From assembly GCF_000311725.1 (NCBI RefSeq), contig NZ_HE978511.1, forward strand, positions 263,498-327,497: a stretch of 64,000 nucleotides of DNA, given 5' to 3'. The notes under the pieces were generated by a model. The model had not been told where the DNA came from. It saw only the letters and a program-made list of their open reading frames with translations, and did no database searches. Each line of letters starts with the position of its first letter. Position 1 is the stretch's first letter. This document shows positions 968 to 18,102 of the stretch, piece after piece. The stretch is from Robertmurraya massiliosenegalensis JC6 (lineage in GTDB: Bacteria > Bacillota > Bacilli > Bacillales > Cytobacillaceae). Both the position numbers and the translations under genes were made by a program.

Positions 968-1096
968 TTCTTTCCTCCTTTCCTATATTCATCTACAACA
1001 AATTGGTCGAACATCTAACTAAAGCTTACTATCTTTTTAATTAATTGAATATTCCTAATTTTTTGTATGATCTATCCCTAAAAAGTAGGTGAAATT

Positions 1097-1792
1097 ATGG
1101 CATATGAATATACAATTTCAAACGAACTCCGTGAATTAGAATGCGCTCCCACTTACGAAGATAAACTCTATAAAATACTTGAAACCTATATGAAGCTATT
1201 TCCAGTGAAAAATTCTTTTTTATTTCGATACTCCCATTTAGGTTTTCTTGGTGAAGGTATTATCTCTATAAACGCTGATGAATTAATTCATATTAGAGAT
1301 ATTCGTGATGATATTCGTTCATTACCAATCATTTACAGCGCTCTATACGAACGGAAAGCGAAATATTGTTCTGGTATTGATTACTTAAGACAAGTAAATA
1401 GTAAATACATTACTTCTTCCAACGTAAATTCTCTTGCTGTTATCCCGATCTGCGTGAATTCAGTAGCAATCGGATATATTTGCACAAATGAATTCAATAA
1501 AGATACCATTATTGATCAAAAGGTACTAGCTTCCTTTACCTTATATGGTCAGAAAGTCGGGAAAATTTTAGAAAGATCCCACGATGCCTTGGAATCCAGA
1601 TTATTAAGTAAAAGAGAATTGGAAGTGATGAAGAGAGTTTCATGGGGAGAAAGTACAAAGGAAATGGCTAATAGCATGAATTTAAGCGAGTTAACGATCA
1701 ATCAATACGTAAGAAGCGCTATAAAAAAACTGGGGGCACAAAACCGGGTTCATGCCGTTTCCATCTTATTTCGAAATGGGATTCTCTCTTAG
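1097..1792 (+). CDS. LuxR-family transcriptional regulator
   Basis: A 231-residue protein with a GAF-like or autoinducer-binding-like N-terminal region (about 1-160) and a C-terminal LuxR helix-turn-helix. The HTH begins at LLSKRELEVMKRVSWGES (about 168) and includes the expected TINQYVRSAIKKLGAQNR recognition region. No receiver domain or phospho-acceptor Asp is seen, so this is not a NarL-type response regulator. The start ATG follows AGGTGAAATT. Its divergent position suggests that it controls the neighbouring monooxygenase gene (inference). The ligand is unknown. Confidence 0.85.
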   Translation: MAYEYTISNELRELECAPTYEDKLYKILETYMKLFPVKNSFLFRYSHLGFLGEGIISINADELIHIRDIRDDIRSLPIIYSALYERKAKYCSGIDYLRQVNSKYITSSNVNSLAVIPICVNSVAIGYICTNEFNKDTIIDQKVLASFTLYGQKVGKILERSHDALESRLLSKRELEVMKRVSWGESTKEMANSMNLSELTINQYVRSAIKKLGAQNRVHAVSILFRNGILS

Positions 1793-1828
1793 TCTTTATA
1801 ACTTCCGCAATAGTGAAAATAGTTAGAA

Positions 1829-1880
1829 AAGAAGCCATATCATTTGATGATAAAAGCAACATGCAGATGGCTTCTTTCAT
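1829..1880. terminator. Bidirectional rho-independent terminator
   Basis: The arms AAGAAGCCAT (1829-1838) and ATGGCTTCTT (1867-1876) form a 10-bp stem. It sits between the converging LuxR-type and serine hydrolase genes. Confidence 0.7.
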
Positions 1881-1891
1881 TTATTTTGCTT

Positions 1892-3235
1892 CTATAATCC
1901 TACAAATGTTTTTTCAAACACCCGGGGATACATCCTTACTCCGAAGAAAGCTGCCCATATCTTTCCATTGGAATCAAAATAAAATTTGATTGGTTTGTCA
2001 TTTTTAACGACTACTAACGTCTGCTCATCACTAGCTCGCAGATCGTAAATTTCCCCAAAGACATTCCCTTTTAATGAATCGTTTTCGAAATAGATTTTTA
2101 TTTGACTATTGCTTTCTGCGCCTGCGTACGTGCCGACAAATTGTTCAAGTTCTTCCATTGATGCTTCGTAGACCGGCTCTCTATTTGGTTGTTGTTCAAA
2201 CGGAATATGTAATACTTGATTAATGGCAGCTTGCCAAATATTTCGCACAGAAACGCCTGTTACATTCGTTAATACCGCCACCACCAAATTCTTTTCTGGA
2301 ACAAAACCGAAATTAGAGGACACACCTGGTTGACTACCACCATGTTCAATGAGTGTCACTCCAAAATAATCTGGGGTAATTTTAAGCGCAAAGCCATAAT
2401 AAGAAACTCGATCAATTTGATACTTTGGTTCAAACATTTTTTGAATCTTATCTTTTTTAATGGCAAGTTTTGTTAACTCTGGTGCTTGATTTAAGTAGAA
2501 TTGACCATACTTGATTAAATCGATAACTGTTGAACGGATTCCACCACCAACTTCATAGTTCCCAAGTTGTGGCCAAGGCACTTCCATTAATTGGTTCGTT
2601 TTCTTTTGATAAATATACGGAGTTGTCACATTCGAAAATTTATAAACTTCTTCTAAGCTAAATGTAGAGCGATGCATTTCTAATGGAAATAATATATGCT
2701 CAGTTACATATTGTCGAAATAAGCGACCTGTTACTTTTTCAATAATAGCTCCAAGTAGTAGAAATGTATCATTACAATAACTAAAATATTCTCCAGGCTC
2801 ACCTAAAACATAATAGGGTTCTTTTTCTAAATATGCTAAATGCTTTACAAAATCGTTGAAATTTTCACACCTCTTCATTGGTGGCAGTCCAACAGAATGT
2901 GTTAACAGATGATGAATTTTCACTTTGCTACTATCCTCTAGATTACTCAGTTTAAAATCCGGCAAATATTTTATCACCTCGTCATCCGCTGATAACTTCC
3001 CCTCTGACTCTAGCTTCATAATCGCAAGAGCGGTAAATGATTTGGATATAGATGCAATTCCAAAAATCGTATCTTTTGTCACAGGTTCTCTCGCTTCAAT
3101 ATTTCGATATCCGAATCCATTTTCATATATCACTTTTCCGTCTTTCGCTACCGCTATAGCAACTCCAGCAATGTTTTCTTCCAACATTAATTCTTCAACA
3201 TACTTTTCAAAACGATTCCAATCCTGTAGTTTCAC
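1892..3235 (-). CDS. Serine hydrolase, class C beta-lactamase/PBP4*-like family
   Basis: A 447-residue protein. The beta-lactamase (PF00144) fold is shown by the nucleophile motif SISK (in GIASISKSFTALAIM, about residues 60-75), the YxN motif YCN (in FSYCNDTFLLLG) and the third motif EHGGSQPG. A C-terminal beta-rich domain from about residue 360 resembles the lipocalin-like or DUF3471 tails of this family. No signal peptide is visible, so a cytoplasmic esterase or peptidase is more likely than a penicillin-degrading enzyme. The start is GTG at 3233-3235, after GGAGGAAATAGA. Members of the family include esterases, D-aminopeptidases and PbpE; the substrate cannot be inferred. Confidence 0.85.
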   Translation of the reverse strand: MKLQDWNRFEKYVEELMLEENIAGVAIAVAKDGKVIYENGFGYRNIEAREPVTKDTIFGIASISKSFTALAIMKLESEGKLSADDEVIKYLPDFKLSNLEDSSKVKIHHLLTHSVGLPPMKRCENFNDFVKHLAYLEKEPYYVLGEPGEYFSYCNDTFLLLGAIIEKVTGRLFRQYVTEHILFPLEMHRSTFSLEEVYKFSNVTTPYIYQKKTNQLMEVPWPQLGNYEVGGGIRSTVIDLIKYGQFYLNQAPELTKLAIKKDKIQKMFEPKYQIDRVSYYGFALKITPDYFGVTLIEHGGSQPGVSSNFGFVPEKNLVVAVLTNVTGVSVRNIWQAAINQVLHIPFEQQPNREPVYEASMEELEQFVGTYAGAESNSQIKIYFENDSLKGNVFGEIYDLRASDEQTLVVVKNDKPIKFYFDSNGKIWAAFFGVRMYPRVFEKTFVGL

Positions 3236-15518: not shown

Positions 15519-15950
15519 TGCATAACCTCCAAATTTTATGAATTTTTATACACAATCCACCAGGAATCCAACGGCGTAAAAACTAATAATACTGAAATTA
15601 TTTAATATTCAGCAAATTAAATATTGTTCTTAATATAATAAAAATCGAACAAGATATCCAATACATTGTTAAAAAATATGACATGGTTTTTTCTATAAAT
15701 CTTAATGAAAACGGTACCGATATTTATTTTTTGTTAGATGTAAATGAATTGGGTAGAAAATAAATTATTATTCTTTTTTCTACGGGACTATTTGCGGGCA
15801 ATCTTCCATGAAAAAAGTCACATGTATAATGAATGCATAAAATATTTATTTTTTTTATGATAGATTAAAAAATTTCTTATTATTTAATTTCATTTTTTTG
15901 TTTTACAATAACTCAATAAGTCTTACTATTTGATGGAGGAGAACGAGTTG
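15519..15950. other. Divergent intergenic region, M20 operon and split transporter
   Basis: 432 AT-rich bases without a gene. It contains a probable leftward promoter with a CodY-like site (listed separately) and a TATAAT at about 15824-15829 on the plus strand, without a good -35 at standard spacing. No riboswitch fold was recognised. Confidence 0.5.
15586..15618 (-). promoter_or_regulatory. Probable promoter overlapped by a CodY-like box
   Basis: Read on the minus strand, TTGCTG (15610-15615), an 18-base spacer and TATTAT (15586-15591) form a plausible sigma-A promoter for the M20-opp operon. AATATTCAGCAAATT (15604-15618, plus-strand reading) matches the CodY box AATTTTCWGAAAATT with two mismatches and covers the -35. 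CodY represses peptide-uptake operons in amino-acid-rich cells in B. subtilis; repression here is inferred. Confidence 0.4.
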
Positions 15951-16508
15951 ATGTTTTTCCATTTTTTCTTATTTCTCATGATAGCCGCAGTAGGAGGAAT
16001 CATCGGGGCCTTAGCAAAATTACCACTCGGGACGATGATTGGTGCGATGTTTGCTGTTGGAATTAGCAAACACTTTGAAATTCTTTCCTTTCAAACTTCA
16101 ACTCCTCTCACATTTATCGTTCAACTCTTATTAGGAACGATGTTTGGATTATCTTTTATCAAATTGACAAAAGAGCAGATCAAAAAGCTATTTTTCAGTT
16201 TCTCATTCATTATTTTCAGTGTTATTCTCATGTCTGTAGGAACTGGTTTTTTGGTCGCTAAGTTAACATTTCTTGATCTAGGGGCATCAATCTTAGCCTC
16301 CTCACCCGGGGGAATCCCAGAAATGGCAATTACCGCAAAAGCATTAGAGTTGCAAGCACCCATTATTGTAGTCATTCATCTCATCCGTGTAATAGTTGTA
16401 ATGTCCTTTTTTACGATACTATTAAACTATTTTTATAAGCGCACAAAAGCGAGTGAGCCTGAAACAACAAACATACTTGAAAAAAGCTGCGAGCGCTCAG
16501 TTAATTAA
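15951..16508 (+). CDS. AbrB-type membrane transporter, N-terminal half protein
   Basis: A 185-residue membrane protein with one copy of the repeat normally duplicated in AbrB-family transporters (PF05145, TIGR03082). The repeat's conserved end is visible as SSPGGIPEMAITAKALELQA followed by IHLIRVIVV. Full-length relatives of about 350 residues carry two such repeats; here the second is a separate gene 21 bases downstream in the same frame. The start ATG at 15951 has AGGAG eight bases upstream. Despite the family name it is not the DNA-binding AbrB regulator. The substrate is unknown; the neighbouring peptide operon suggests transport or recycling of a peptide product (inference). Confidence 0.8.
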   Translation: MFFHFFLFLMIAAVGGIIGALAKLPLGTMIGAMFAVGISKHFEILSFQTSTPLTFIVQLLLGTMFGLSFIKLTKEQIKKLFFSFSFIIFSVILMSVGTGFLVAKLTFLDLGASILASSPGGIPEMAITAKALELQAPIIVVIHLIRVIVVMSFFTILLNYFYKRTKASEPETTNILEKSCERSVN

Positions 16509-16529
16509 AGGAGGAGAACTCGATTCATT

Positions 16530-17036
16530 ATGAATGTGCAATTAAAACAGTGGACGCTCATTATCACCATGGCATTTATGGGGGGATTTGTCGGGTATTG
16601 CACGCAATTGTCTTTAGGCGTTTTCTTAGGTTCTGTACTCGTTATTTCACTCTGGACAATCTTCAAAAAAAATGTGCCTAAATTCCCTCTTAAAATTAAA
16701 AAAATTGTCCAAATTATTGTTGGAGGTAATATCGGGCTAGCTTTCACGACAGAAACATTCGATTTAATTAAACAAATTTGGCTTCCTGGTCTTCTCGTAT
16801 CCTTCATCAATACCATTCTCGGCTTATTATTGGCATTCATTCTCCACCGATATTTAAAATATGATCCATGTACAGCACTAGCAAGTTCGGCACCAGCAGG
16901 GATGAGTGAAATGTCATTAATTGCGGAAAGATATGAGACCGACATCCCCACCGTTTTATCGATTCATTTATTTAGAGTAATTGTGATTATTTTAACGGTT
17001 CCTGCCATCGTTAGCTTTGTCATTCATTTGATCTAA
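16530..17036 (+). CDS. AbrB-type membrane transporter, C-terminal half protein
   Basis: A 168-residue membrane protein with the second repeat of the AbrB transporter family: SSAPAGMSEMSLIAERYETD followed by IHLFRVIVII, parallel to the upstream gene. It lies in the same reading frame as the upstream gene, separated only by a TAA stop and 21 bases. AGGAGG lies 15 bases before the ATG, an unusually long spacing, and no closer in-frame start exists. The two halves probably assemble as a heteromer that replaces the usual fused protein (inference). Confidence 0.8.
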   Translation: MNVQLKQWTLIITMAFMGGFVGYCTQLSLGVFLGSVLVISLWTIFKKNVPKFPLKIKKIVQIIVGGNIGLAFTTETFDLIKQIWLPGLLVSFINTILGLLLAFILHRYLKYDPCTALASSAPAGMSEMSLIAERYETDIPTVLSIHLFRVIVIILTVPAIVSFVIHLI

Positions 17037-17144: not shown

Positions 17145-17173
17145 TTGTAAGAACATATCTTTCTAGGTATAAT
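17145..17173 (+). promoter_or_regulatory. selC promoter
   Basis: TTGTAA (17145-17150), a 17-base spacer and TATAAT (17168-17173) form a good sigma-A promoter. The tRNA begins 16 bases after the -10, so selC is transcribed on its own with a very short leader. Confidence 0.75.
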
Positions 17174-17189
17174 GAGAATTGTTCTATAC

Positions 17190-17286
17190 GGGGCTGAATG
17201 GGGTACTGGTGTCCTCCGCGGTCTTCAAAACCGTCTGTGTCCTGCGTGCCAGGATAGCTGGGTTCGATTCCCAGGCGGTCCCGCCA
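17190..17286 (+). tRNA. selC: Selenocysteine tRNA, anticodon UCA
   Basis: A 97-base tRNA-Sec with encoded CCA. The anticodon loop is CTTCAAA with anticodon TCA, closed by GCGGT/ACCGT; the loop is the same as in E. coli selC. The long variable arm forms a 7-bp stem (TGTCCTG with CAGGATA). The T arm is CTGGG-TTCGATT-CCCAG. The acceptor is GGGGCTG with CGGTCCC (with G-U pairs) and an eighth A/G mismatch, followed by discriminator G. The D arm can form six pairs with a 4-base loop. These are hallmarks of bacterial tRNA-Sec rather than of an opal suppressor. It is charged with serine, which SelA converts to selenocysteine for insertion at UGA by SelB; neither gene, nor selD, is in the window. Confidence 0.92.
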
Positions 17287-17313
17287 ACAAGTTTATCTTT
17301 TATAGTTGATTTG

Positions 17314-17347
17314 AAAGCTACCTTTAAAGCTAGGAAGCTTTTTTTAT
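17314..17347 (+). terminator. selC terminator
   Basis: AAAGCTACCT (17314-17323) pairs with AGGAAGCTTT (17332-17341) with one mismatch, and a T run follows. It makes selC a monocistronic unit. Confidence 0.7.
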
Positions 17348-17676
17348 TTTCTCTGTTTTCGTAATGATTGTGAGTTTTTCCTTCAGGTCCAAAAGCCAAC
17401 TTTACATCTCTTACCTGTTTTTTTAGACACACATTATTTTTTGCGCAGCACTTTTCGTTGTTACATTGTCTTTTTGGTAAGGGACATGAGTTCTTTATTT
17501 GCGTAAGGATAATTTAAAAGCAACATTGTTAGCATTAAATGCCTTTATTTGTGATGAACTAGATTAGACATTAGGATTATCTTTAAACATTGTGAATTTC
17601 CAGCTCATGTCTTGTCTAATCATAGTAACAACGTCTATAATAGTGTTGACATTAAACTGTTTTGTAGGTGAATGAC
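17348..17676. other. Gene-free stretch between selC and yneK
   Basis: About 330 AT-rich bases. No convincing open reading frame or RNA fold is seen. Its right end must carry the yneK promoter. Confidence 0.4.
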
Positions 17677-18102
17677 ATGCTTGAAGGCTGGTTTGGTTGG
17701 TTTATCGTAATTTGGGTTTTTGTGTTCGCTGGCTCAATGGCCATTGGTGGATACTTCATGTTTAGAAAGTTCCTAAAAAAGCTTCCAAAAGAAGACGGGA
17801 AATCGGATATGGACTGGGAAGAATACTACGTAAATCAAACGAGACATTTGTGGAACGATGAGCAAAAAGAATTGCTTGAAGATTTAGTAAGTCCTGTACC
17901 AGAGCTATTTCGGGATGTAGCTCGGCACAAAATTGCAGGTAAAATTGGGGAGCTCACTTTAACTGAAAAGCGAGATAAAGTAACTGAAGACTTAGTGATC
18001 AGAGGATACATATTGGCAACACCGAAAAGAGACCATAAATTTTTATTAAAGAAGTTAGATGAAAAAAGAATTGATGTAACACCGTATCAGCATTTGTTTT
18101 AA
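17677..18102 (+). CDS. yneK: YneK-like DUF2621 membrane protein
   Basis: A 141-residue protein of the DUF2621 family. One N-terminal membrane segment (WFGWFIVIWVFVFAGSMAIGG, about residues 4-24) is followed by a basic then mixed-charge cytoplasmic domain containing DMDWEEYYVNQTRHLW. ATG at 17677 has AGGTG six bases upstream; GTG at 17668 is the longer alternative. Position beside ccdC-yneI-ccdA matches B. subtilis, where yneK follows the same genes, although here it converges on ccdC. The function is unknown. Confidence 0.85.
   Translation: MLEGWFGWFIVIWVFVFAGSMAIGGYFMFRKFLKKLPKEDGKSDMDWEEYYVNQTRHLWNDEQKELLEDLVSPVPELFRDVARHKIAGKIGELTLTEKRDKVTEDLVIRGYILATPKRDHKFLLKKLDEKRIDVTPYQHLF

Follow-up and report, generated by a model that had tools for sequence, protein, structure and literature searches.

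The window analysed here is the whole stretch of 64 kb (C1:263498-327497) from Robertmurraya massiliosenegalensis JC6, whose assembly comprises 4.96 Mb in 24 contigs with a completeness of 100. A single tRNA was detected in this window by ARAGORN, a tRNA-SeC with anticodon tca encoded on the forward strand. The corresponding gene, selC, and all other features mentioned below are located in Table 1.

Table 1. Location of the features discussed. Plain numbers are window positions; contigs (C), loci (L) and genomes (G) are given where needed.
Feature	Location	Strand	Evidence or remark
Adjacent AbrB-family ORFs	15930-17036		first, C-terminal half of PF05145; second, N-terminal half
Sigma-A-type promoter, TTGTAA-17 nt-TATAAT	17145-17173	+	consensus scan, TATAAT conservation; ends 16 nt 5' of the tRNA
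selC, tRNA-Sec with encoded CCA	17190-17286	+	ARAGORN, Rfam RF01852 (56.7 bits), cloverleaf fold, 7/7 genus genomes including this one
Anticodon UCA in loop CUUCAAA	17225-17227	+	sequence, ARAGORN
Possible intrinsic terminator (weak)	17313-17342	+	A/T-rich hairpin, then U run; fold, z -1.2
selB	C1:214544-216403		359.9 bits, cut-off 242.25; no internal stop
selA	C8:74760-76139		565.4 bits, cut-off 267.9; no internal stop
selD	C8:71169-72095		386.8 bits, cut-off 125; one internal TGA
FdhA 1, NRT-U-HAPSVAGL	TGA at C5 104535		TIGR01591, 801.9 bits, cut-off 666 (read through)
FdhA 2, AEI-U-HAPTVASL	TGA at C2 562710		TIGR01553, 979.3 bits, cut-off 814 (read through)
FdhA 3, ARI-U-HSSTVAGL	TGA at C2 488185		TIGR01553, 1276 bits, cut-off 814 (read through)
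TGA-interrupted frame	14533	+	rejected
TGA-interrupted frame	38585	-	rejected
Candidate TGA-interrupted frames (three)	20638; 27023; 43052		
LipP1-type esterase, in-frame TGA	L032:15563-16504 (C1, 2 kb left of window); TGA at 261414		283-aa frame after the TGA; rejected
Repeat of selC 3' part	L086:1721-2230		similar sequence before each repeat
Repeat of selC 3' part	L106, about 1000-2850	-	similar sequence before each repeat
Second, divergent tRNA-Sec beside selB	L203:7775-9898 (G050:C16)		family member with two selA matches

The selC gene and its surroundings

An Rfam cmscan of the window returned RF01852 (tRNA-Sec) as the sole family above its gathering score. The match is full length (17190-17282) and exceeds the cut-off of 47 bits with an E-value of 8.1e-9, its score being lower than the family best of 67.4. 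When the whole genome was searched with RF01852, this gene was the only match above the cut-off. Free folding of the 97 nt produced a cloverleaf with a 7-bp acceptor, a 5-bp anticodon stem, a 5-bp T stem, a long variable arm of 7 bp and a long D stem, in which 4+2 pairs flank one U-C mismatch, closed by the 4-nt loop UGGU. The discriminator is G73, followed by CCA. Acceptor and T arm together are of the 13-layer, 8+5 form, i.e., 8 residues plus 5 bp, the eighth layer being an unpaired A-G. The fold energy shows no clear excess stability over shuffled sequences (z -1.1) and the weight of the identification is therefore borne by the family models and by conservation. The UCA anticodon, the long variable arm, the long D stem with its 4-nt loop, G73 and the eight residues followed by a 5-bp T stem are all shared with the bacterial tRNA-Sec family, and nearly identical tRNAs are found in related Bacillaceae, e.g., Mesobacillus selenatarsenatis, Neobacillus, Cytobacillus and Robertmurraya. 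The original prediction of a selenocysteine tRNA with a UCA anticodon, a long variable arm and a CTTCAAA loop is thus borne out by ARAGORN, Rfam and the fold. It had named a covariance score favouring another tRNA type as a ground for refutation, and RF01852 alone was above threshold.

The span first attributed to the gene (17145-17350) extends from the promoter through the possible terminator. The promoter-like site displays 10 of 12 consensus matches, sites of this quality occurring three times in the scanned stretch against 1.4 expected in shuffled sequences. Its TATAAT is conserved in six of the seven aligned genus sequences, the seventh (L010) having been aligned on the opposite strand. 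A promoter proper to selC is accordingly supported. A terminator of its own is plausible: a suitable hairpin appears in the fold, and none was reported 3' of selC by the consensus scan.

The gene is flanked on the left by two half-length AbrB-family ORFs (PF05145) and on the right by a DUF2621 gene, which we take to be yneK. The predicted position between an AbrB-type pair and yneK therefore stands as to the two protein families. Further right are found a CcdC-family gene, a response regulator and a DsbD_TM protein, presumably CcdA. A DUF2621 gene lies close to selC in five of the six other loci of the genus and in 35 of 45 loci from the wider Bacillaceae, some of the misses being near a locus end. 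The tRNA and DUF2621 gene share the same direction in the window, in L010 and L097 (both from one genome) and in L093, whereas they are opposed in the other 33 of the 35 Bacillaceae loci containing both. Within the genus, selC is flipped relative to DUF2621 in the window (17190-18102) and in L010 when compared with the congeneric L009, L012, L013 and L014.

Two relatives carry a repeat of the 3' part of selC, spanning the anticodon loop through CCA, about 0.4 and 1.8 kb downstream. These repeats are likely to be remnants of elements integrated in selC. No such repeat was found in the window by the scan that detected them.

The eighth acceptor layer

Eight residues separate the T stem from G73 in selC; seven of them are base-paired to the 5' strand, and the G at the eighth position is opposite an A. 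The E. coli tRNA-Sec, in contrast, has a C-G pair at this position. A purine-purine combination was observed in 74 of 75 parsed copies of the family, the only paired copy (L145) being a second, divergent tRNA. The same holds for all 24 parsed copies from sister families and for 26 of 29 from other Bacillota, 24 of which are G-A; the remaining three are A-T. The copies without a parse were excluded from these counts: L137 and L138 (2/77 in the family), L196 (1/25 in the order) and L207 (1/30 in the phylum). The samples lean towards high scores, since 30 family, 25 order and 30 phylum loci were the best-scoring ones, with a further 40 family loci hand-picked among the matches listed; copies originating partly from one genus are moreover not independent. 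The 45 Bacillaceae loci were left out because the pattern used for their retrieval fixes base 8.

A purine-purine mismatch at the eighth acceptor layer is usual for the Bacillota copies sampled. It is shared by copies from the family, from sister families and from elsewhere in the Bacillota, so that neither this genome nor the genus is peculiar in this respect. That Bacillota tRNA-Sec in general have such a mismatch, conserved and mostly G-A (A-G in this gene), as a structural signature that SelA or SelB of the phylum might read is a tentative and rather doubtful proposal. Other deviations, consisting of acceptor strands of seven residues, are described in the Secmarker paper (PMC5330540), where the present gene has eight.

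Selenocysteine machinery and in-frame UGA codons

The selA, selB and selD genes were all identified above curated NCBIfam equivalog cut-offs. The selB gene is on the same contig as selC, about 64 kb from it and 47 kb beyond the left edge of the window, and selA and selD are spaced by about 2.7 kb on another contig. None of the three is in the window, as had been stated in the original prediction.

The internal TGA of selD is located in the motif SKAG-U-GCK. Stretches around the molybdopterin oxidoreductases of this genome yielded three frames for formate dehydrogenase alpha subunits, each interrupted by a single TGA and with His as the next residue. In the FdhA gene of C5, the residue facing this TGA is Cys in 7qv7_S, an FdhF chain, and X in 9t1s_L, a formate dehydrogenase chain; the E. 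coli enzyme formate dehydrogenase H (1aa6) is matched as well. We take the aligned Cys/Sec to be the active-site residue. The redox or active-site assignment of the TGA codons is based on this structure alignment for C5 FdhA and on the motif for selD and the other two FdhA genes. In bacteria, the SECIS element is a short segment inside the coding sequence, so that the comparison of the hairpins following the four TGA codons with shuffled sequences is a weak test (z -1.0, -2.4, -0.2 and +0.6, one being clearly better); conserved coding sequence at these places would in any case shape a hairpin. As selenoproteins outside the window were sought in selected stretches of the genome, the four genes represent a minimum. 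Read through, their frames would give products of 355, 697, 1016 and 1024 aa.

In agreement with the original prediction, none of the five TGA-interrupted frames of the window was recognised as a selenoprotein, the search covering frames with a minimum of 20 aa upstream and 80 aa downstream of the codon and missing shorter ones. Two of these candidates were rejected by eye: frame 14533 is antisense to an M20 peptidase and frame 38585 is a lead-in to a start that we recognise as that of Hfq. A LipP1-type esterase close to the window was also considered as a new selenoprotein and discarded, the TGA facing, by eye, an Arg in the relatives L132 (78% identical), L133 and L134, and the sequence after it folding no better than shuffled ones (z +0.55). 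This TGA seems to stem from a nonsense change or an error of sequencing.

Distribution and probable function of the selenocysteine trait

RF01852 was found above the cut-off in all seven Robertmurraya genomes, this one included, in 172 of the 193 genomes of the GTDB family, in 115 of 249 from the order sample (nine being of this family) and in 146 of 199 from the phylum sample. The selA gene, tallied with E-values up to 1e-100, is likewise present in 172 family genomes. Both genes co-occur in 170 of these, the tRNA alone is found in two (G001 and G004, 81 and 80% complete), selA alone in two (G085, 66% complete, and G168, 85% complete and with an internal TAG in its selA) and neither in 19. 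One genome was absent from both family listings and was assumed to be G192 in either case.

Fourteen control genomes were processed as well. RF01852 was above its cut-off in five of them, E. coli, Caulobacter, Thermus, Thermotoga and Methanocaldococcus, and selA (E up to 0.001) above its own in E. coli only. Methanocaldococcus uses the archaeal route to Sec. In Caulobacter vibrioides, Thermus composti and Thermotoga maritima, where selA stayed below the cut-off, either the RF01852 match is spurious or the pathway is a different one. On its own, a tRNA-Sec match is therefore no proof of the trait and the tRNA tallies of the order and phylum may run high. B. subtilis, another of the fourteen and described beforehand as devoid of a selenocysteine pathway, displayed neither a tRNA-Sec above the cut-off nor a selA match. 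The accompanying statement that the organism is one of the fewer Bacillaceae inserting Sec is too strong in view of the family and order tallies.

Two further observations concern individual members of the family. Neither tRNA-Sec nor selA reached the thresholds used in any of the 13 listed genomes of genus g21 (G172-G184); Sec decoding was probably lost throughout this genus. In G050, the selB gene next to the second tRNA-Sec is 46% identical to the selB of the present genome, and this locus is perhaps a second, acquired Sec system. Use of Sec in Bacillales is already known in print. Three selenoproteins of three families are given for Firmicutes/Bacillales in Table 2 of PMC1794560. A literature search combining Robertmurraya and selenoprotein found no paper.

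All parts of the Sec decoding trait (SelA, SelB, SelD and FdhA) are present in this genome and no difference from the known system was found. Judging from the sequence, it is very highly probable that selC is functional and that its Sec-tRNA is delivered to the UGA of selD and of the three FdhA genes. This reading is built on the tRNA, selA, selB, selD, the in-frame TGA codons and the co-occurrence of tRNA and selA across the family, from which expression, charging, conversion, delivery and SECIS function are what we infer. The selC transcript would be charged with serine by SerRS and the resulting Ser-tRNA converted into Sec-tRNA by SelA. The selenophosphate for this step would be supplied by SelD, which is in turn predicted to be a selenoprotein in this genome. 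SelB would then bring the Sec-tRNA to the in-frame UGA of at least four genes, selD and those of the three formate dehydrogenase alpha subunits.

The alternative of a relic, left in a bacterium that has given up Sec insertion, would be in keeping with the separation of selC from any operon with selA or selB and with the seeming loss of the trait in several family genomes, 19 of 193 showing neither tRNA nor selA at the thresholds applied. It is nevertheless very unlikely and was rejected on gene content: a complete genome without selA, selB and selD had been put forward as the sign of a relic, whereas all three are present at full length, four frames are open apart from one TGA, and no family genome more than 85% complete has the tRNA or selA alone. 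The chance that selC is a look-alike of other identity (selC* tRNA-Cys, allo-tRNA or opal suppressor), such as those described in PMC7609411 with U73 for selC* tRNA-Cys and 8/4 or 9/3 forms, is negligible, as the present gene has G73 and eight residues between a 5-pair T stem and the discriminator, and no other tRNA-Sec exceeds the cut-off in this genome, which possesses selA, selB and selD.

This gene is therefore a normal selC and probably a working part of the Sec pathway. It is a gene of a well-known kind, and its clade commonly has the Sec tRNA together with selA: both co-occur through most of this GTDB family, though B. subtilis has neither. The warning that UGA stops of this genome must be read with care is justified, since at least four genes are predicted to have a UGA translated as Sec, and an annotation treating this codon only as a stop would leave SelD and three formate dehydrogenases truncated or called broken.
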